Assembly: GCF_036663835.1 (NCBI RefSeq)
Contig: NZ_JAXOJT010000001.1
Span: 1,116,001-1,180,000, forward strand
DNA from: Sphingomonas sp. LT1P40
GTDB lineage: Bacteria; Pseudomonadota; Alphaproteobacteria; Sphingomonadales; Sphingomonadaceae
Length of the DNA stretch: 64,000 bases
Reading direction: 5' to 3'
The notes below the pieces were generated by a model, which had not been told where the DNA came from, made no database searches, and was given only the letters and a program-made list of their open reading frames with translations. Both the position numbers and the translations under genes were made by a program. Within the stretch, counting starts at the first letter, position 1, and every line of letters begins with the position of its first letter. Of this stretch, positions 43,980-56,968 are shown piece after piece.

Positions 43980-44849
43980 ATGACAGGCGTGTTACCGGAT
44001 GGATCGCGGGATCTCCGCATCGAGGATCCGACCAATCTCTGGATCGTTCACCCGGCGGGGCGCAGGCTGCTCCCGCTGTTCGTCGCGCGTGGCATTTCGG
44101 CCAATATTGTGTCGGTCGGCGGGCTGGTTCTGGGCACGCTCGCTGCGCTTTCCTATGCCAATTGGGGCCATTGGCAGTTCGCGGTCATGGGGCTGTTGCT
44201 GTCGATCGCGTGGTTGATCGCCGACGGCCTCGACGGGATGATCGCCCGCGCCACCAACACCGCCAGCCCGCTGGGTCGCGCACTTGACGGGCTGTGCGAT
44301 CATGGCGTGTTCGCACTGATCTATATCGCGCTGGCCATTTCCATCGGCACGATCGAGGGCTGGGTGTTGTCGGTCACCGCCGGGATATTCCACGCCGTGC
44401 AGTCGAACCTGTACGAGAGCGAGCGCGCGCGGTTCCATCGGCGGATCAAGGGCGTCGCCGCCGCCCCGCCCGTCCCCAGCCGCAACCCGCTGGTCCAGCT
44501 CTATGATTATGTCGCGGGCACGATCGACCGATTCGCGCAGTCGTTCGACAATGTCCTGCGCGCCGCACCCGATCCCGCGCGACTCGCCGCCGATTACGGC
44601 GTGCGGGCCGCGCGTCCGCTCCACCTAATGAGCCTGCTCAGCGCCAATGTCCGCGTCATTGCGATCTTTCTCGCTTGCGTGGGCGGCGATCCGCGCTTCT
44701 TCTGGTGGTTTGAAATCGTGCCGCTGACCGTAATCCTGGTCGTCGGCCTTATCTGGCATCGCATCGTGGAGGGTCGCCTCATCCGGGGCGGCGCCGCTGC
44801 GTATCTTCATCAACCAACACACACCCTCATAGGACAAGACAAACAATGA
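43980..44849 (+). CDS. CDP-alcohol phosphotransferase, candidate CDP-inositol-dependent enzyme
   Basis: 289 residues from the ATG at 43980. It is a membrane protein with about six hydrophobic helices. The CDP-alcohol phosphotransferase motif is complete: Asp82-Gly-Leu-Asp85-Gly86, Ala89-Arg90, Gly99, Asp103 and Asp107. These enzymes swap CMP from a CDP-alcohol for another alcohol in the membrane. The next gene makes inositol-1-phosphate and overlaps it by 4 nt. A cytidylyltransferase-like gene follows. I infer that it uses either CDP-inositol with a lipid or inositol-phosphate acceptor, or CDP-diacylglycerol with inositol-1-phosphate. The acceptor is not known. Confidence 0.85.
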   Translation: MTGVLPDGSRDLRIEDPTNLWIVHPAGRRLLPLFVARGISANIVSVGGLVLGTLAALSYANWGHWQFAVMGLLLSIAWLIADGLDGMIARATNTASPLGRALDGLCDHGVFALIYIALAISIGTIEGWVLSVTAGIFHAVQSNLYESERARFHRRIKGVAAAPPVPSRNPLVQLYDYVAGTIDRFAQSFDNVLRAAPDPARLAADYGVRAARPLHLMSLLSANVRVIAIFLACVGGDPRFFWWFEIVPLTVILVVGLIWHRIVEGRLIRGGAAAYLHQPTHTLIGQDKQ

Positions 44850-45937
44850 CGAGCATCAACATCGCCCTGGTCGGCGTCGGCAATTGTTCCAGCTCGCTGG
44901 TGCAGGGCCTGTCGCATTATCGTGAAGGCGCGAACGACACGATCGGCCTGATGCACGTCGATCTGGGCGGTTACCGCCCCAGCGACATCAAGGTCGTCGC
45001 CGCATGGGACGTCGATTCGCGCAAGGTGGGCAAGGACGTGGCGGAGGCGATCTTCGCCAAACCGAATTGCACCGCGATCTTCTGCGACACGGTCGAGCCG
45101 ACCGGCGCAGTGGTCCAGATGGGCCGCATCCTCGACGGCGTCGCCGAGCATATGGACGAATATAATGACGACCGTACCTTTATCGTCGCCAAAGCACGCG
45201 AAGCGACCAAGGACGAAGTCGTCGCCATGCTGCGCGCGACCAAGACCGACGTGTTGATGAACTATCTGCCCGTCGGATCGCAGAAAGCCAGCGAATTCTA
45301 CGCCGAATGCGCGCTCGAAGCCGGCGTCGCGTTCGTCAACAACATTCCCGTGTTCATCGCCAGCAACCCCGAATGGGCGCAGCGCTTCATCGATGCCGGC
45401 GTGCCGATCATCGGCGACGACATCAAGGCACAGCTGGGCGCGACGATCGTCCACCGCGTGCTGACCGACCTGTTCGCCAAGCGCGGCGTGAAGCTGGAGC
45501 GGACCTACCAGCTCAACACGGGCGGCAATACCGATTTCCTGAATATGTCGAACCACCGCCGCCTGGCGTCGAAGAAGATTTCCAAGACCGAAGCGGTGCA
45601 GTCGGTTGCGGCCGAGCGGTTGGAGGACGAGAATGTCCATATCGGCCCGTCCGACTATGTGCCGTGGCAGAACGACAACAAGGTCTGCTTCCTGCGCATG
45701 GAAGGGTCGATGTTCGGCGGCGTGCCGATGAACCTGGAACTGCGCCTGTCGGTTGAAGACTCGCCCAACAGCGCCGGCGTGGCCATCGACATGATCCGTT
45801 GTGCCAAGATCGCCAAGGATCGCGGCATCGCTGGACCGATCGACGCGGCATCGGCCTATTTCTGCAAGCATCCGCGCACGCAGATGACTGACGATCTCGC
45901 GGCGCAGGCAGTCGAAGACTTCATCGCTGCCGCTTGA
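44846..45937 (+). CDS. myo-Inositol-1-phosphate synthase (Ino1 type)
   Basis: 363 residues. It converts glucose-6-phosphate to L-myo-inositol-1-phosphate with NAD as cofactor. The NAD-binding start is NIALVGVGNCSSSLVQGL. Core motifs are DVLMNYLPVGSQKAS, FVNNIPVFIASNPEWA, IIGDDIKAQLGATIVHRVL, LNTGGNTDFLNM, HIGPSDYVPW and SPNSAGVAIDMIR. This closely resembles the mycobacterial enzyme, not the longer eukaryotic type. Its ATG overlaps the CDP-alcohol transferase stop, so synthesis and use of inositol phosphate are directly coupled. Confidence 0.95.
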   Translation: MTSINIALVGVGNCSSSLVQGLSHYREGANDTIGLMHVDLGGYRPSDIKVVAAWDVDSRKVGKDVAEAIFAKPNCTAIFCDTVEPTGAVVQMGRILDGVAEHMDEYNDDRTFIVAKAREATKDEVVAMLRATKTDVLMNYLPVGSQKASEFYAECALEAGVAFVNNIPVFIASNPEWAQRFIDAGVPIIGDDIKAQLGATIVHRVLTDLFAKRGVKLERTYQLNTGGNTDFLNMSNHRRLASKKISKTEAVQSVAAERLEDENVHIGPSDYVPWQNDNKVCFLRMEGSMFGGVPMNLELRLSVEDSPNSAGVAIDMIRCAKIAKDRGIAGPIDAASAYFCKHPRTQMTDDLAAQAVEDFIAAA

Positions 45938-45944
45938 TCGCAGC

Positions 45945-46658
45945 ATGATCGACACCGCAATCCTGCTCGCTGCGGGCGAAGGCAGCCGCCTTCGCGCCGT
46001 GGTGCCGTCTAAGCCGCTCTGCCATGTCGCAGGGCGGCCGTTGATCGAGCATGCCATCCAAAATCTCGCGGCGGCGGGAATAAAGCGGGTCGTGGTCGTC
46101 CTCGGCTATGCGGCGGAGGTTATCGAAGCGCATCTCGACTCATGCACGCTGCCGATCCCGGTAGAGACGGTGCGGACCGACGATTACCGCAAACCCAATG
46201 GCGTTTCGCTGCTGGCTGCGGAGTGCGCCGTTGCGGGCGGTGAGGCGTTGCTGGCGATGTGCGATCATCTGGTCGAACCCGCGCTGTACCGGCGCGTGGC
46301 ACAGGCCGGTGCTGGCGGCGGTGCGCGGCTGGGGGTCGACCGTAACATCGCCAGCGATCTGGTCGATCTCGACGATGTCACCCGCGTAGCGACCAATGGC
46401 GACCGCATTGTCGGCATCGGCAAGCACCTCGAACCCTATGACTGTTTCGACACCGGCGTGTTCGCGGTCGGCCCGGCGCTGTTCGCCGCGCTTCGCACGC
46501 TCAATGCACCGTCGCTGACCGAGGGCATGCGCATTCTCGCCATGCGGGGAACGGCGCGCGTGATCGATTGCGGCACGTTGGGCTGGATCGATGTCGATGA
46601 CCAGCCCGCCCTCGACAAGGCGGAGGCCTGGGTCCGACAATCGGCTGAAATGATTTAA
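45945..46658 (+). CDS. NTP-transferase, candidate CTP:inositol-1-phosphate cytidylyltransferase
   Basis: 237 residues. The nucleotidyltransferase signature is ILLAAGEGSRLRAVVPSKPLCHVAGRPL (in two parts: residues 6-16 and the Lys at 23). It is followed by VVVVLGYAAEVIE, the metal-binding region LLAMCDHLVEPALY, and FDTGVFAVGPALFAAL. This class includes phosphocholine cytidylyltransferases and the IPCT enzymes that make CDP-inositol. Its position 7 nt after inositol-1-phosphate synthase and next to a CDP-alcohol transferase favours the inositol role. Base and substrate specificity are inferred, not shown. Confidence 0.78.
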   Translation: MIDTAILLAAGEGSRLRAVVPSKPLCHVAGRPLIEHAIQNLAAAGIKRVVVVLGYAAEVIEAHLDSCTLPIPVETVRTDDYRKPNGVSLLAAECAVAGGEALLAMCDHLVEPALYRRVAQAGAGGGARLGVDRNIASDLVDLDDVTRVATNGDRIVGIGKHLEPYDCFDTGVFAVGPALFAALRTLNAPSLTEGMRILAMRGTARVIDCGTLGWIDVDDQPALDKAEAWVRQSAEMI

Positions 46659-46886: not shown

Positions 46887-48470
46887 ATGCGCAAACCTGC
46901 ATTGTTGACCAGCGTTGCCCTTGGCGGCGCGGCAGCACTTTTCTTCACCGCAACCCCGGCATTGGCGGACGCGACGGCACCTTGTAACGACGGCGCAGGT
47001 GTCGGTTCGACCGAGTGCGGCAGCAACAGCACCACCGGCGCGGCGACCTTCGCGACGGCGGTCGGCGCTGCGGCCACCGCAACAGGTGCAGAAAGCACCG
47101 CCGTTGGCGAGTCATCCGAAGCGATCGGCAGTCAGAGCACAGCCACCGGTTCTTTGTCGGATGCGACCGGCGCCGGTTCGACCGCAAATGGCTATAATTC
47201 CAACGCCACCGCCACCAATGCCTCATCCTATGGCAGCAATTCCAACGCCGATGGCATCGGATCGAGCGCAATCGGCGCGGGTGCAAGTGCATCCGGGCTA
47301 AATGCAACCGCAGTGGGCATCGGCGCGCAGGCGACGTTTGTAAGCGCAACCGCCGTTGGCTCAAATGCGCTGTCGAGCAGCGTGCAGTCTACCGCAGTGG
47401 GCACCGGATCGGTAGCGTCCGGTGTTGGCAGCACCGCCACGGGTAGTTTCTCGCAGGCAACCGGCGCCGCCAGCGTCGCAAACGGCTATGCAGCAACCGC
47501 TGCTGGCACGAACGCCTATGCTGGCGGACTTGGCGCCGTCGCTTCGGCCAATAATTCGATTGCGATCGGTACGGGCGCCAACACCACGACCGCAACAAAC
47601 CCGACTTCGCTCGGCACGTCGGTTGCAATCGGCAACGGCGCGCGCGCAACCGATGAGGATGCGGTCGCACTGGGCGATCTTGCCAATGCCTCCGGCTTCC
47701 ACTCCACCGCAATCGGCGGCGAATCGACTGCATCGGGGCGTGGTGCTCAAGCGTTCGGCTGGCAGGCTTCGGCAACCGGCAACCTATCGCTCGCGGTCGG
47801 CCATCAGGCCAATGCAGCGGGCGTGAATGCCAGCGCGATCGGCAAGAATGCGAACGCGGGCTTCGACAATTCGACCGCGGTCGGCTTCGGTGCCACCACT
47901 ACGCGCGCCAATCAGGTCGTTGTCGGCGGTGCCGGCAGCTCGGTCACCGTCGGCGATCTCACCGCCAGCACCGCGGCACAGGTCGGCGCAGTCAACGTCG
48001 TGACGGCGGATGCCACCGGCACGCTGGGTCGCGGTCCGACGGTCGCCAGCCTCGCCACCGCCGCCTCGGTCACCGCATTGGGGACTCAGGTGTCCACGAT
48101 CAGCGGTCAGGTCGGCACGCTGCAAACCCAGGTCGGCACGCTGAACACCCAAGTGGGCACGCTGAACACGCAGGTCGGCACCCTCAACGGTCAGGTTGCC
48201 GGGCTGATTGCATCGGATGCCTCGATCCGCAGCGAACTGCGCCGCACCAATGAAGGTGTCGCGCTGGCGCTGGCGATGGAAAGCCCGATGGTGCCCGAAG
48301 GGTCGAAATTCGCCATGTCCGGCGGCGTCGGCTATTTCAACGAACGTGCCGCCGGTTCGGTCGCACTCAGCGCCCGGATCAGTGATCGTGCAATCTTCTC
48401 CGCAGGCGTCGGTGCCGGTTTCCAGACCGGTGAGATCGGCGCGCGCGGTGGTTTCCAGGTTGCCTGGTAA
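46887..48470 (+). CDS. Short trimeric autotransporter (YadA-like adhesin)
   Basis: 527 residues. A signal peptide (LLTSVALGGAAALFFTATPALA) is followed by a long head made of 14-15 residue YadA-type repeats (for example SSAIGAGASASGLNATAVGIGAQA) up to about residue 370. There is a very short stalk with four 7-residue VGTLxxQ repeats at residues 409-436. The C-terminal anchor (SKFAMSGGVGYFNERAAGS to FQVAW) ends in an aromatic residue, as required for beta-barrel assembly. It should trimerise in the outer membrane and mediate adhesion or self-aggregation. A strong ribosome-binding site (AGGAG at 46876-46880) precedes the ATG. Confidence 0.9.
   Translation: MRKPALLTSVALGGAAALFFTATPALADATAPCNDGAGVGSTECGSNSTTGAATFATAVGAAATATGAESTAVGESSEAIGSQSTATGSLSDATGAGSTANGYNSNATATNASSYGSNSNADGIGSSAIGAGASASGLNATAVGIGAQATFVSATAVGSNALSSSVQSTAVGTGSVASGVGSTATGSFSQATGAASVANGYAATAAGTNAYAGGLGAVASANNSIAIGTGANTTTATNPTSLGTSVAIGNGARATDEDAVALGDLANASGFHSTAIGGESTASGRGAQAFGWQASATGNLSLAVGHQANAAGVNASAIGKNANAGFDNSTAVGFGATTTRANQVVVGGAGSSVTVGDLTASTAAQVGAVNVVTADATGTLGRGPTVASLATAASVTALGTQVSTISGQVGTLQTQVGTLNTQVGTLNTQVGTLNGQVAGLIASDASIRSELRRTNEGVALALAMESPMVPEGSKFAMSGGVGYFNERAAGSVALSARISDRAIFSAGVGAGFQTGEIGARGGFQVAW
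48111..48194 (+). repeat. Four tandem 21-nt repeats encoding the stalk VGTLxxQ heptads
   Basis: Four units of 21 nt at 48111, 48132, 48153 and 48174 encode VGTLQTQ, VGTLNTQ, VGTLNTQ and VGTLNGQ. The near-identity at DNA level suggests recent duplication and a potential for stalk-length variation by slippage. Confidence 0.85.
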
Positions 48471-49391: not shown

Positions 49392-50396
49392 CTAGTTCGC
49401 CGCGCTGAGGCGAACGGTGCCGTTGACACCGGCGGGGAAGAACCCGCCGCGATCGACCGCCATCTTGTTGAGATAGGCGATGTTAAGCACCTGTCCCGTG
49501 GTCCGGCTGAAAGCGAGGCCCGAACTGTCGGTTGGCGCGATATTCGACGCCGTAGTTGCGCCGGTACCGGTCGCCTTGACGCCCTGATCCAGGTCGCTCG
49601 CCCCGTCGAGACTGTCACGCGCGTTCGAGATCGCTTCGGTCGCGTCGATCAGCGTCGGCGTCGCAATACCCTTGCGATACAGCACCGTGCGCACCAGTCC
49701 GGCATGATAGGCTTCCGCCGCCAATATGCCCGCCGCGGCCTCCAGGAACGTCTTGTTGGTAATCAGCACCGACGCGCCCTTATATGCGGTCACACCGACA
49801 TCCTCGAAGATATAGGCACCCAGCAGGAAGTTCTCATCGCTGGCATAGGGGTCGAACGATGCGCCGGCACCGATAAGTCCGGCGGCACGCGCTGCCGAGG
49901 AGAAGGCACCGGTCGGGCTCGATCCGATGTCGATCGCCGGTTGGGCGACCTTGGCGGTGCCCAGCGCGGTGCGCAAGAATGCGACATGCGCTCGTTCGTC
50001 CGCAGCGATCTCACGGGCATATTGCGCGACCAGCGGATCGGTAAAGACCACTTGTCGCCCGCCAGTGACCGCCCCCTGCGTTCCCGTCCCATCCAGCATA
50101 TTCGCCGGAAGTCCCGATCCAGTTGCTGCAAACAGATAGAATTGCGCTTCCAGATATTCGAGATTGAGGGCGAAGTTCAAAACGTCGCCATCGGTTACAC
50201 CGGTAGCGGGCGGGGTTGGCGTCGGAGTCGGCGCGGGCGTCACCGCACCGCTGCTGTCGGTTTTATCGCACGCTGCGAGTAGCGAGGCACCCGCAATTGC
50301 CGCGGTTGCGCCGCCAGCGGCTTTCAGGAATTTACGCCGCTCGTCCCGGCGTTGCTCGCTTGCGCCGAGCACTTCGAGGATCAGATCTTGCTTCAT
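49392..50396 (-). CDS. Tat-exported ferritin-like lipoprotein, copy A
   Basis: 334 residues. The N-terminus has a twin-arginine motif (RRKFLKAAG, residues 20-28) and a lipobox LLAAC with Cys43, so it is probably exported folded and lipidated. The Thr/Pro-rich linker after that leads to a ferritin-like domain: [50 protein letters not shown] and [11 protein letters not shown]. The Glu and Glu-x-x-His positions fit a di-iron site of the PF13668 (ferritin_2) type. The biological role of this family is not settled; desiccation and stress links are known. A strong Shine-Dalgarno AAGGAGG lies at 50403-50409. Confidence 0.85.
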
Positions 50397-50425
50397 GGGA
50401 AACCTCCTTGGGCTATGCCCGAACC

Positions 50426-51382
50426 TCAGTTGGCCGCGCTCATGCGGAGTTCGCCGTTGACGCCTGCGGGGAAGAACCCGCCGCCGGTCACGGCTGCCCG
50501 GTTGAGATAGACGATGTTCAGAACCTGTCCGGGGGTGCGGCTGTACGCGATACCGTTCGCGTCAAGCGGCGCGATGTTACTCGCGGTCGTCAAGCCGGAA
50601 CCCGTCGCGCGAACGCCCTGATCGAGATCGCTCGACCCGTCGAGACTGTCGCGCGCGTCTGAGATCGCCTCCGTCGCATCGATCAGGCTGGGTGTCGTCA
50701 GCCCCTTGGCATACAGCGTCGTGCGCACGATCGCGGCATGATAGGCTTCGACCGCCAGAAGTCCTGCCGCCGCTTCCAGAAACGTCTTGTTCTGCACTAG
50801 CGGCGATGCACCCTTATAGGCGGTGACGCCGACATCCTCGAAGATATAGGCGGCGAGGAGAAAATTCTCGTCATTTGCATAGGGATCGAACGACGCACCG
50901 GCACCGATCAGTCCGGCCGCGCGTGCGGCCGACGAAAAGGCTCCAGTGGGACTCGATCCGATGTCGATCGCAGGCTGGGCGACCGCGACCGTGCCCAGCG
51001 CGCTGCGCAGAAACTCAACATGCGCACGTTCATCGGCAGCGATCTCGCGCGCATATTGCGCGACCACCGGATCGGTGAACGCCACCTGCCGTCCGCCGGT
51101 CGCCGCACCCTGTGTCCCGCGCCCGGTCAGCAAACCGGCCGGAAGACCGGCACCCGTCGCAGCGAAAAGGTAGAATTGCGCTTCGAGATATTCGAGGTTC
51201 AACGCGAAGTTCAGAATGTCTGCGTCGCTGGGCGCCGTCTGCGCGCTCGCCGGCGAACCCATTTGCGTGACTGCGGCGGCGGTCGTTCCCACCAGGCCGA
51301 AAGCCATGAAGAAGTTGCGCCGGCTCTCGCGGCGTTCGCCCCGAGCCTCCAGCGCTTCGATCAGCTCGTCACTTCTTTCCAT
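50426..51382 (-). CDS. Tat-exported ferritin-like protein, copy B
   Basis: 318 residues. It is a close paralogue of the next gene downstream, sharing [53 protein letters not shown] and [13 protein letters not shown] almost without change. The N-terminus has [16 protein letters not shown], a Tat signal, and the cleavage site is probably near ASAQT; there is no lipobox. So copy B would be soluble in the periplasm and copy A lipid-anchored. A Shine-Dalgarno GAGGAGGA precedes the ATG. It is divergent from the Crp/Fnr gene across 150 nt. Confidence 0.85.
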
Positions 51383-52338: not shown

Positions 52339-55300
52339 CTACTGCCAATTCCCCAGCAGCACGAACGGCGCCCAGTAGAATGGGTGGGCATAGCCTGTCA
52401 CCGCCGGTCCGGTTGGCGCGCTGCCGGGCGGTGGCGCGCGCATCTCACCCCGGTCGCCACCGGCCTTGCCGCTCGCATCCATCAGTGCGACCTGCGCCTG
52501 CCGCAGCCCTTCGGCCTTGCTCGTCGCGCCCTTGGCCTGGATCGCATAGAAACGCTGCATTAGCACGGCGGTGGATTCGTCCGCCACTGACCACAATGAT
52601 GCCAGCACCGCCGACGCGCCCGCCTTTTGCGCCATTTCCGCAAGGCTGGAATCGATCTCCGCCCCGTTCTGGTCGATCTGCGGCACGCCGGTCTGGCATG
52701 CCGATAGCGCCAGCAGGTCCACGTCGATCGCGGTAAAGCGGCCGTCGCTGATAAACTCGTTGAGCGGCAGCTGCTTACCGTCGCCGAGCAACAGGAACGA
52801 TTTGGACGCGCTCCCCGGATCGAGCGAGAAGTGCGATGCGATGTGGATCACGCGATACCCGCCCGCCATCGCGGTGCCCAATGCCGCCCGGTCGAACGCC
52901 GCATCCAGCCGGACGACGCCGGGCAGCACGCCCGTTGCTATGGCCGGATCGGCGCGGACGATCCCGCTCAGTTCGGCGGGGACGGCTGGCAAAGGGCTAA
53001 GGCCACTTCCGCCCTGACTCGCGCCAAGCGCAGCGACGCGCCAGTTTTTCGCATCCGTCGGCCCGGTTTGGACTTCGTCGATCGATCGGAACGCGCTGAA
53101 TGCATAGCGTTTCGCCAGCCAGTCCTTGCCGTCATGCAGCGCCGCAAACGGCAAATAGCGCAATGCGTCGTCGAGCGAGAGCATCACCTGCTTGATGCCC
53201 GCCGCCTTCAGCGCCCTGTCCACCGGCTCGAATGCCGCCTTGTACAGCTTGCTCGCGGGATCGGTAATGAACACCGCCTTGTCGCTGATCGCCTGACGAT
53301 AGGCACCAACGTCCTTGCGCAGCGCGATGATGTCGACCGGCACGACGATCGATCGCTGGTAATTGGCGGTGGTCAGCAACCAGTGGATGCGGTCCGGCAG
53401 CACCACCGCATGCAGCGCGGCGACATCCTTGCCCAACCGTCGCACCGTGGTGATCAGCTTGGGCTGGATCGCCGCGACCCGGTTCGCCTTTGCCTCCAGA
53501 TCGGGCGCCCGCTTTGAATCCAGCGCCGCCACCGCGGTGCCCAGCGATGTCAATTCGGTGCGGAACGCCGATTGCGCCGCGCCCAGCGCGGTCGTGGCAA
53601 CCTCGAGCTCCTTTTGCTGATCGGCGGTCAGATCGCCCTTTGCCTGCAATGCGATCAGCCGGTCGCGCGCGCTTCCCGCCTGATGCAGCGCCGCCGTGGC
53701 ATTGTCGAATGCCGCCAGACTCGCGGTCTGCGTCGCGTCCAGCGGCATCCGCTCGAACGCCTCGCCCTCGCGCCGCTTATCCCGCGTGTAATTATAGGTC
53801 TCGAAATCCTTGAGCATCGCCAGGACATTCTCGGCCTCGGCGAACCGCCCCATGCCCATGAAAATATCGGCGAGATAGCGATAGCGATCCTGATGCACGC
53901 GGATGAAGCATTCGCGGATCGATGGATCGAGGTCCGCGATCCGCTTGCGCGCATCCTGCAGCTTGTTCACGGCAACCTTTGCGAAGAACAGTGCCGCCTC
54001 CGGTCGACCGCCGCCATTGGCCTCCGTCGCAGCGGTCGACCAGAGGCAGGAGGCTTCGATCAGCGCGAAATAATTGTCCGTGCCGCCAAACTTCACGCGC
54101 AGCCCGGCTTCCTTCGTAGCCAGCGACCGCATCTTGGTCGCCAGATACAGGTCCATCTTGTTGTAGAGCAGATAATGCTCCTCAAGCCCGCGAAACCCTT
54201 CGAACACCGCGAATTCAGAACCTTGCTCGACGGCCGCGTCCAGCGCTTTGGTCAGCGCGGCAGCCCGGTCCTCGAACGCCGGCTCGGGTGCGATATCGGG
54301 CGTCTCCACCCCGATGGGAATCGGCGTGAAATCCTTTTGCTTCACCAAACATGCAATCGTCGCCTGCGCACCGCACGCCTCGGTCCATTTCTTCGCGTTT
54401 TCGCTGGTCCGCCGCACGCCCTCGGCGAGCCAGTAGCGCACCTGCTTCACATCGGGCGTCATGCCCCAGCCCAGCGCCGACGCGCGCACCATCGCCTCGG
54501 CACCGCCCGAAAAGCGCGGGTAAGCGGCGTGCTTGAACCAGCGCAGCGCCATTGTCGGATCCTTGGCCACGCCCACCCCGTGCAGATACGCCTCACCCAT
54601 CGCCACGCGCGCGCTGTAATCGCCGCAATGCACGGCATAACGCAGCAGCCGGATGCCCTCTTTCGGATCCGCCTTGGTGCCGTTGCCGGCCATGTACATC
54701 CGCGCGAGATTGACCTGCATGGCATAGCTTGCCGACGCTGCCCGCTGCATCCACTCGAACGCCTGAACCGGATCGGGCGACGGCGCGCCCACCAGCTCAG
54801 CCTCGGTAAATTCCATGGTTCCGCCATAATAGACGGCCAGGTTATAGGCGGCATAGGACTCGCCCTGCCGATAGGCGTCTTCCCAGGCCCGAACCGCCTT
54901 CAGCGCGCTCTTCTGGCCGTCGAACCCGCGCATGTGCATATAGCCGATCGCGCGCATCGCATCGCCCGACCCCAATTTGGCACCCTGCTCGAACCAGGTG
55001 CGCGCCGCCTTCGCATCGCCCTTGCCTTCGTCCAGCAGCATCCAGGCATAGCGCGACGCCGCCTCCTTCATCCCCAGCTCCGAAAGCTGGCGCAGCAACG
55101 GCGCATGGCTCGCCGTGCGCGTGAAGTTGAAGGCAAAGGGGGTGTCGGCAACTTTCAGGAACGTCTCCCGACGCTCCGGCGTCATCGCCTTGAACTCGGC
55201 GGTCTCCGAATAGCGCGCCACCTCGCGCAGCGCCGCTTCCTGCAACTGCAGGTTGAGCATCAGCTGAATCTGAAACTGCTTGGCGGCAACCGGATCGGTC

Positions 55301-56895
55301 GCGGCACCCGTGTAGCGCATCGCCAAGGCGAATTGCTGCGCAGACAACCGTCCCATCTGCAACGCCTCGGCCACCCCGAGCAGCACTTTGGGATCGGTCT
55401 CACCCGCGATCCGGGCGCGCCATTTGACGCTATCGACGACCAGTCCGCGCGATTCCATCAGCGATCCGGGATGCGCCAGCGCGGCCAGCGCCCAACCCTC
55501 GTTCATCGCCGCACGCTTCTCGATCAGCGCCAGCGCATAAGCCTTATCAGCTTGTGACGGATCGTCGCGGAGCACCACTTCAACGAGCGGCCCGGCGACG
55601 TTCGGGACATCTGAGGCCAGCGCTTTCTCATAATAGCGGCGCGCTGCTTTCAGGTCGGCGGGAACCTCCTTGCCCTCGGCAAAGGCAGCGGCGGCAATCG
55701 CCGCATTGTCCGCATCCTCGTCCTCGGCCAGCTTGTGATACCATTTGACCGCAGCCGGATTATCGCTCGGCTGGCCGGTGAATTCGCTCGAACTCAGCGC
55801 ACGAGCCAGCCGCTGCATGCCCCGCGCATCGCCTGCCTCTGCCGCCTTGCGATACCATTCGCGTCCGGCGCCCTCGTCGCGCGGCATGCCTTCGCCCATG
55901 CTCGCCATGTCGCCGAGTTGCACCATCGCCTCGGTCTCGTCCTCGTCAGCCGCTTTGCGATACCACAGGATCGCCTTCGGCAGGTCGCGCTCGACACCGA
56001 CGCCCTGGTGGTAGTGATAGCCGAGCATGCGCATGCCGGCCGCGTCCCCGCGATCCACCGCCAGCTTCGTGAGGTTGAACGCCCCGACAGCGTCACGCGG
56101 CCCGCCACGACCGTTCCGCAGCAACAGACTCAAATTCGACGCCGCCCAGCCCGACCCCTGTTTGACGGCCAGTGCATAGAGCCGCCGCGCCTCGACATCG
56201 TCCTTCGGCGAACCATGGCCCGCCTCGGCCATATAAGCCAATGCCGCAATCGAATCGGCGTCGCCCATCGCCATTGCGCGCGAATACCATTTCCGCGCCA
56301 ATGCATAGTCACGCGGCACCCCGTATTTTCCAAAGCGATAGATATCGCCCAGATCCTTCGCGCCGCCCCGGTTGCCCAGCCCAACGGCCCGCTCATACAT
56401 CGCAATCCCGGCCTTCAGGTCGACCGGCGTACCAGTCCCGGCCATGTAATATTCCGCCAGCCGCCCGACGATCCACGCATAGCCGCTGCGCTCGCCCGAT
56501 TTGACGATGGCAAAGGCGCGTGCGGAATCTTTGGGAACCCCCTCGCCATTTTCGTAAATGCTGGCCAGCGTGTTGAGCGCCTGCATGCTGCCGGCTGCGG
56601 CTGCCCGCTCGATATAGGGCAGTGCTTTCTTGCCCTCACCCGCCTTGGTCAGCGCACGGCCCAGATTGGCAAGCACATCACGATCGTCCGGCGCAGTCTC
56701 CAGCGCCCGGCGGCAAAGCTGGATCGCACGTTCGGCAACCATGTCATCGTAAGAGACACCGGTGGGATCATTGGGCGTCGGAAGCCGCGCTTCCTGTATG
56801 CACGCCTTGCGAAAATCGGTTTGCCGCGCCTCGGCCTGGGTCGTGACAAGTGCTGCGAACGATACACCCGCACCAAGAAGGATTCCGCGTATCAT
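52339..56895 (-). CDS. Giant secreted Sel1-repeat protein with C-terminal CHAT peptidase domain
   Basis: 1518 residues from the ATG at 56895; an earlier start at 56952 is possible but would bury the signal peptide (IRGILLGAGVSFAALVTTQAEA). Residues from about 80 to 430 and 640 to 860 hold Sel1/TPR-like repeats (for example ALARKWYSRAMAMGDADSIAAL, ILWYRKAADEDETEAMVQLG). A helical region with coiled-coil character follows at about 940-1130. The C-terminus is a CHAT caspase-like domain, with His1355 in VIHIASHFS and Cys1400 in LLALSACQTGV forming the dyad. CHAT peptidases cleave proteins on activation, often through the repeat part. Substrate and trigger are unknown. Confidence 0.87.
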   Translation of the reverse strand: MIRGILLGAGVSFAALVTTQAEARQTDFRKACIQEARLPTPNDPTGVSYDDMVAERAIQLCRRALETAPDDRDVLANLGRALTKAGEGKKALPYIERAAAAGSMQALNTLASIYENGEGVPKDSARAFAIVKSGERSGYAWIVGRLAEYYMAGTGTPVDLKAGIAMYERAVGLGNRGGAKDLGDIYRFGKYGVPRDYALARKWYSRAMAMGDADSIAALAYMAEAGHGSPKDDVEARRLYALAVKQGSGWAASNLSLLLRNGRGGPRDAVGAFNLTKLAVDRGDAAGMRMLGYHYHQGVGVERDLPKAILWYRKAADEDETEAMVQLGDMASMGEGMPRDEGAGREWYRKAAEAGDARGMQRLARALSSSEFTGQPSDNPAAVKWYHKLAEDEDADNAAIAAAAFAEGKEVPADLKAARRYYEKALASDVPNVAGPLVEVVLRDDPSQADKAYALALIEKRAAMNEGWALAALAHPGSLMESRGLVVDSVKWRARIAGETDPKVLLGVAEALQMGRLSAQQFALAMRYTGAATDPVAAKQFQIQLMLNLQLQEAALREVARYSETAEFKAMTPERRETFLKVADTPFAFNFTRTASHAPLLRQLSELGMKEAASRYAWMLLDEGKGDAKAARTWFEQGAKLGSGDAMRAIGYMHMRGFDGQKSALKAVRAWEDAYRQGESYAAYNLAVYYGGTMEFTEAELVGAPSPDPVQAFEWMQRAASASYAMQVNLARMYMAGNGTKADPKEGIRLLRYAVHCGDYSARVAMGEAYLHGVGVAKDPTMALRWFKHAAYPRFSGGAEAMVRASALGWGMTPDVKQVRYWLAEGVRRTSENAKKWTEACGAQATIACLVKQKDFTPIPIGVETPDIAPEPAFEDRAAALTKALDAAVEQGSEFAVFEGFRGLEEHYLLYNKMDLYLATKMRSLATKEAGLRVKFGGTDNYFALIEASCLWSTAATEANGGGRPEAALFFAKVAVNKLQDARKRIADLDPSIRECFIRVHQDRYRYLADIFMGMGRFAEAENVLAMLKDFETYNYTRDKRREGEAFERMPLDATQTASLAAFDNATAALHQAGSARDRLIALQAKGDLTADQQKELEVATTALGAAQSAFRTELTSLGTAVAALDSKRAPDLEAKANRVAAIQPKLITTVRRLGKDVAALHAVVLPDRIHWLLTTANYQRSIVVPVDIIALRKDVGAYRQAISDKAVFITDPASKLYKAAFEPVDRALKAAGIKQVMLSLDDALRYLPFAALHDGKDWLAKRYAFSAFRSIDEVQTGPTDAKNWRVAALGASQGGSGLSPLPAVPAELSGIVRADPAIATGVLPGVVRLDAAFDRAALGTAMAGGYRVIHIASHFSLDPGSASKSFLLLGDGKQLPLNEFISDGRFTAIDVDLLALSACQTGVPQIDQNGAEIDSSLAEMAQKAGASAVLASLWSVADESTAVLMQRFYAIQAKGATSKAEGLRQAQVALMDASGKAGGDRGEMRAPPPGSAPTGPAVTGYAHPFYWAPFVLLGNWQ

Positions 56896-56968
56896 AGATC
56901 CCGCCTCCGCCCTCTTATCCTCCAACCGGCGATGCGATGACAAGCCCGTCAATTCAGACGAAATAAGT

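Follow-up and report, generated by a model that had tools for sequence, protein, structure and literature searches.

The 64,000-nucleotide stretch of Sphingomonas sp. LT1P40 DNA analysed here (C1:1116001-1180000, hereafter the window) belongs to a 3.47 Mb genome that is assembled into two contigs and is 99.97% complete. At positions 43980-46658 (+) of the window three genes, all reading in one direction, encode a CDP-alcohol phosphotransferase (CDP-AP), a myo-inositol-phosphate synthase (MIPS) and a nucleotidyltransferase, and are referred to here as the trio. The first gene (43980-44849 (+), 289 aa; PF01066 2.8e-10) specifies a class I CDP-AP, which is proposed to be a CDP-inositol-dependent inositolphosphotransferase. 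It is followed by a MIPS of the Ino1 type (44846-45937 (+), 363 aa; PF01658 4e-38) and by the nucleotidyltransferase (45945-46658 (+), 237 aa; PF12804 6e-16), for which a role as CTP:inositol-1-phosphate cytidylyltransferase (IPCT) is proposed. The CDP-AP and MIPS genes overlap in an ATGA (spacing -4 nt), and +7 nt separate MIPS from the nucleotidyltransferase gene. A longer CDP-AP reading frame is possible from GTG 43818; aligned relatives start near ATG 43980. The original prediction for this DNA had described three coupled genes with a complete CDP-AP motif, and their placement, strand and spacings were all verified. As judged from sequence, the trio is very probably a three-gene operon for the CDP-inositol-dependent transfer of inositol phosphate.

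The nucleotidyltransferase matched three IPCT profiles over its full length (2xme, 9.8e-34; 4mnd, 2.6e-33; 4jd0, 8.9e-27). In contrast, the match to LicC, a phosphocholine enzyme, covered positions 2-107 only and was some 22 orders of magnitude weaker by E-value (1.6e-12), while sugar enzymes scored 4.3e-14 or weaker, so that by full-length profile the protein groups with the IPCTs and not with the phosphocholine or sugar enzymes. Residues R15, K23 and D107 are invariant (32/32) and were matched to IPCT by alignment; the catalytic Arg, Lys and Asp are R16, K26 and D112 in the comparison of CpgD with IPCT found in the available part of PMC12275187. A structure-guided search, which the original prediction had called for, was made with an AF2 model of the protein (pLDDT 95.5), and the four leading Foldseek rows were all IPCTs. 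From profile, fold and invariant residues, the protein is regarded as a putative IPCT that in all probability joins CTP to inositol-1-phosphate to form CDP-inositol.

Other substrates were nevertheless considered, namely that the enzyme acts on phosphocholine, on phosphoglycerate (as CpgD does) or on a sugar phosphate, and that MIPS is a bystander. Database names of its relatives include ‘choline kinase’ and ‘phosphocholine cytidylyltransferase’, VIA-align of the model placed PntC and UDP-glucose enzymes within about 1 of the IPCT scores, and the nearest solved structure to CpgD is, in the available part of PMC12275187, also the Thermotoga maritima IPCT. The length and strength of the IPCT match, together with the company that MIPS keeps (see below), make this alternative very improbable. 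Caulobacter CpgD is itself of interest as an alphaproteobacterial cytidylyltransferase of the COG1213 group that supplies a sphingolipid head group; it differs in using phosphoglycerate for ceramide diphosphoglycerate and in having no MIPS partner described, a comparison made by description only from the available parts of PMC12275187 and PMC13228409.

MIPS scored 130.3 bits against a PF01658 cut-off of 27, is the sole PF01658 match in the genome, and matched 1gr0, an inositol-3-phosphate synthase (2.3e-121). With TIGR03450, the model for the mycothiol-type Ino1, it reached 454.8 bits against a cut-off of 638. The product of MIPS is the substrate of IPCT, as is established for the family. In the first step of the proposed pathway MIPS would, as expected from its family, convert glucose-6-phosphate to L-myo-inositol-1-phosphate, and in the second the 237-aa protein would combine this with CTP to give CDP-inositol. 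The genome also contains four PF00459 genes and encodes a serine palmitoyltransferase (SPT; NF047603, 799 bits against a cut-off of 670).

The CDP-AP scores over the PF01066 cut-off and carries the complete signature D82xxD85GxxAR...G99xxxD103xxxD107 (class I motif D-x2-D-G-x2-A-R-x8-G-x3-D-x3-D), with D82, D85, R90, D103 and D107 identical in 51/51 aligned homologues. The genome encodes PF01066 proteins at three places, one of them the trio; the other two are PgsA and PssA, each scoring above its NCBIfam cut-off. As the sole such protein besides PgsA and PssA, the CDP-AP is the natural user of CDP-inositol, which is very likely its donor. Were it instead an ordinary phosphatidylinositol-phosphate (PIP) synthase, using CDP-diacylglycerol and inositol-1-phosphate, the co-inherited IPCT would be left without a user in the genome; moreover, it falls far under the cut-offs of NF045883 and NF040950, the models for PIP or archaetidylinositol-phosphate synthase (34.1 against 170 and 40.2 against 180 bits), which makes such a role exceedingly improbable. 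A single-sequence search with the CDP-AP returned choline/ethanolamine phosphotransferases as the only solved relatives at E <= 0.1, a kinship that favours a CDP-alcohol donor and a lipid acceptor. Also counted in favour of a lipid is a strongly amphipathic helix at residues 170-195 (moment 0.56), which the model places after the fourth membrane helix and before the fifth. In the third step, for which Rhodothermus marinus and Bacteroides vulgatus offer parallels, the membrane CDP-AP would use CDP-inositol to place inositol phosphate on a lipid hydroxyl, and a lipid is considered its probable acceptor. The product would be an inositol glycerophospholipid or, given the presence of SPT, an inositol phosphosphingolipid.

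Next, the distribution of the three genes was examined in 295 genomes of the genus, with limits for the trio genes of 1e-30, 1e-15 and 1e-60. The nucleotidyltransferase and the CDP-AP were each found in 171 genomes and together in 169; two genomes were discordant in each direction and 122 had neither (Fisher p 1.6e-78, uncorrected for kinship). MIPS occurred in 188/295, 17 of them with MIPS only, and accompanied the nucleotidyltransferase in 171/171 genomes, which speaks against MIPS as a bystander. In a sample of 149 family genomes, a full-length nucleotidyltransferase (E below 1e-40) was present in 17, and both MIPS and the CDP-AP in 17/17; in three of these (G036, G068 and G133) the genes are non-adjacent, and one further genome (G092) has a CDP-AP without the other two. 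The trio association is more than chance. Together with the IPCT-like profile and fold, this almost perfect co-occurrence of MIPS, IPCT and CDP-AP bears out the enzyme classes of a CDP-inositol pathway that had been read from the window.

A contig scan with one peptide pattern found 126 named loci, of which 80 were kept, and in 77/80 the trio lies within 2.6-4.3 kb. Among these 77 the CDP-AP gene is divergent in 42 and colinear as in the window in 33, and two other orders occur once each. Incomplete named loci comprise L084, a stretch without MIPS or CDP-AP, L100, which starts within MIPS, and L143, with ~9 kb upstream of the nucleotidyltransferase that hold neither partner. Named holders of the trio include Sphingomonas, Polymorphobacter, Sphingosinicella, Sandaracinobacteroides and Thermaurantiacus, and for remoter relatives of the nucleotidyltransferase the named sources include Aliidongia, Acetobacteraceae and Lichenicoccus. 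Plasmid records gave one nucleotidyltransferase match and one CDP-AP match, both on the same 853-kb replicon of S. parapaucimobilis, which carries the trio with overlaps of 1 and 4 nt between the genes.

Overall, the trio is best explained as a pathway in which CDP-inositol donates inositol phosphate to a membrane lipid, at a probability of roughly 0.6; the pathway call is strong and the product call moderate. Several observations weigh against it. The CDP-AP looks six-helix from its model and from the similarity of that model to six-TM structures (hydropathy was rejected as a guide to TM number, as only five 19-residue windows exceed 1.2), whereas CDP-APs with a lipid acceptor usually carry 3-4 additional C-terminal helices, according to the available part of PMC4634129. 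The model is nearest to AF2299 and AfDIPPS, neither of which processes lipids according to the same part of that source; Foldseek gave no match at E <= 0.001, the best being AF2299 at 1.7e-3, and put PIP synthases above AfDIPPS. In addition, R225 (51/51 homologues) and R261 (47/51) resemble, by spacing only, the two arginines through which PIP synthase holds the phosphate group of its soluble acceptor. Two genus genomes, G359 and G423, carry the nucleotidyltransferase and MIPS with no CDP-AP detected, and a third, G239, has no trio gene at the limits given above.

Given this apparent six-helix form and the likeness of the CDP-AP model to soluble-substrate enzymes, a solute must also be considered: the CDP-AP would act as a DIPP synthase (DIPPS) on CDP-inositol and inositol-1-phosphate, and a phosphatase would then yield di-myo-inositol phosphate, here in a mesophile. 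Di-myo-inositol phosphate is a solute known from thermophiles. Its pathway (Archaeoglobus fulgidus 4mnd, T. maritima 4jd0) uses the same enzyme classes as the trio, with IPCT nearest by profile and DIPPS close by fold to the trio proteins. However, the profile match of the CDP-AP to IPCT-DIPPS is weak (3.2e-7) and ranks behind AF2299, CEPT1 and the PIP synthases. NF041135, the Thermococcales model for the bifunctional IPCT/DIPPS, returned 103.9 bits and, for the CDP-AP, 24.7 bits, far under its cut-off of 580. The A. fulgidus IPCT-DIPPS is fused, whereas the trio genes are separate and in a presumed mesophile, and the amphipathic insert of the CDP-AP is an extra helix relative to A. fulgidus DIPPS. 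By title, no report of di-myo-inositol in Sphingomonas was found among the matches listed (best 10 of 257). R. marinus also counts against a solute, as with the same enzymes its product is said to be a lipid and not di-myo-inositol phosphate. A solute is regarded as unlikely, though as a serious rival.

The work on R. marinus (Jorge, Borges and Santos, 2015) is said to have described a CDP-inositol route to dialkylether glycerophosphoinositol and reportedly mentioned homologues in Alphaproteobacteria; the acceptor there is reportedly a dialkylglycerol, and the trio is likened to that system by description only. For the ‘alternative’ inositol lipid cluster of B. vulgatus a CDP-inositol route has been proposed, the functions being unconfirmed according to the authors, in the available part of PMC9246714. 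There, as in the trio, an NTP transferase and a CDP-AP stand beside MIPS; the cluster differs in its HAD hydrolase gene, which is not seen at the trio. The separateness of the trio genes, to which the original prediction drew attention, stands, but it confers no special status, since B. vulgatus-type clusters are separate too and 4jd0 is a stand-alone IPCT.

If a lipid is the acceptor, ceramide is a candidate because the genome has an SPT. SPT is, however, near-universal in the genus (284/295 genomes), so that co-occurrence is no test of this. In the known eukaryotic routes inositol phosphoceramide is made from phosphatidylinositol. Its formation in a single step, by transfer from CDP-inositol directly to (dihydro)ceramide and not via phosphatidylinositol, is a tentative and rather unlikely reading of the trio; in Bacteroides a route via phosphatidylinositol has been proposed (PMC9246714, available part).

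G239 bears on the lipids reported from sphingomonads. Over 407 residues its SPT shows 100% identity to the 2jg2 chain, taken to be the SPT of S. paucimobilis, and on this ground G239 was taken as S. paucimobilis. Among 16 genomes with an SPT 94-100% identical, the trio is present in 11 and absent from G239, G260, G184, G437 and G252. The available part of PMC9246714 reports a phosphohexose-type dihydroceramide (DHC) from S. paucimobilis ATCC 29837 and a phosphoinositol (PI)-DHC-like lipid from Novosphingobium acidiphilum, and neither organism is said to have homologues of the two Bacteroides clusters. The trio was considered as a source of the S. paucimobilis phosphohexose-type sphingolipid and rejected, as G239 lacks all three genes. 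No Novosphingobium appeared among the 80 named loci kept of 126, an absence that carries no weight with a single peptide pattern. Separately, phosphatidylinositol is among the major polar lipids of Pseudoblastomonas (Erythrobacteraceae, Sphingomonadales), according to the available part of PMC12210278.

The surroundings of the trio differ between named loci. In the window, genes for a UvrD helicase and for a ParE-type toxin, the latter with its presumed partner, lie on the upstream side and a YadA-like gene on the downstream side, and none of these indicates lipid synthesis. Outside Sphingomonas, a gene for the capsule assembly protein Wzi (PF14052 6.4e-55) often adjoins the trio (14/80 named loci), and in the divergent members L049, L050 and L051 ABC-2 export-type and glycosyltransferase-type genes do so in a capsule-locus-like setting. 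Such neighbours could mean that CDP-inositol feeds a phosphoinositol-modified polysaccharide or a surface glycolipid. No capsule- or export-type gene adjoins the trio in the window, though, and clustering of the neighbours gave no fourth gene common to the Sphingomonas loci, so that a surface polymer is quite improbable.

Relatives outside Sphingomonas also carry c13 (20/80 named loci), an additional CDP-AP preceded by a degenerate nucleotidyltransferase-like domain. In c13 (L032, L034-L036, L041, L043, L044 and L070) and c16 (L033 and L038) the C-terminal CDP-AP domain is intact, the N-terminal part is without nucleotidyltransferase catalytic residues, and the gene often lies between CDP-AP and MIPS; both look like an IPCT-DIPPS fusion with a decayed first half. 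The genome studied here holds a 388-aa relative of c13 (L076:8511-9677 (-); 8.9e-11), which no longer has the CDP-AP motif and matches no Pfam family. In family genomes, at loci taken around MIPS (L052-L066 and L068), MIPS occurs without an IPCT-like gene and is part of a cluster that recurs with NAD-epimerases (15 loci), a methyltransferase (15), a Pfam-less protein (13), a zinc dehydrogenase (12), a Gfo/Idh oxidoreductase (10) and a histidine phosphatase (8), an arrangement suggestive of a distinct cyclitol or natural-product pathway.

Elsewhere in the window, the YadA-like protein directly 3' of the trio (46887-48470 (+)) has head repeats and a membrane anchor. Two similar, adjacent ferritin-like proteins (PF13668; 334 and 318 aa) are encoded at 49392-51382 (-). 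The product of 52339-56952 (-), 1537 aa long, combines Sel1 repeats with a CHAT protease domain at its C-terminus.

Inositol lipids are relatively rare in Bacteria, according to the available part of PMC9246714. The trio adds widespread and apparently untested members to a known kind of pathway; in the open-licence literature no test of an alphaproteobacterial or Sphingomonas CDP-inositol trio was found. As a simple three-gene system it bears on the unconfirmed CDP-inositol route of Bacteroides. One-step synthesis of inositol phosphoceramide, if true, would be an independent bacterial route across much of a large environmental genus. If the trio makes an inositol lipid, over half of the species sampled from the genus (169/295 genomes) would have a compact route to it.
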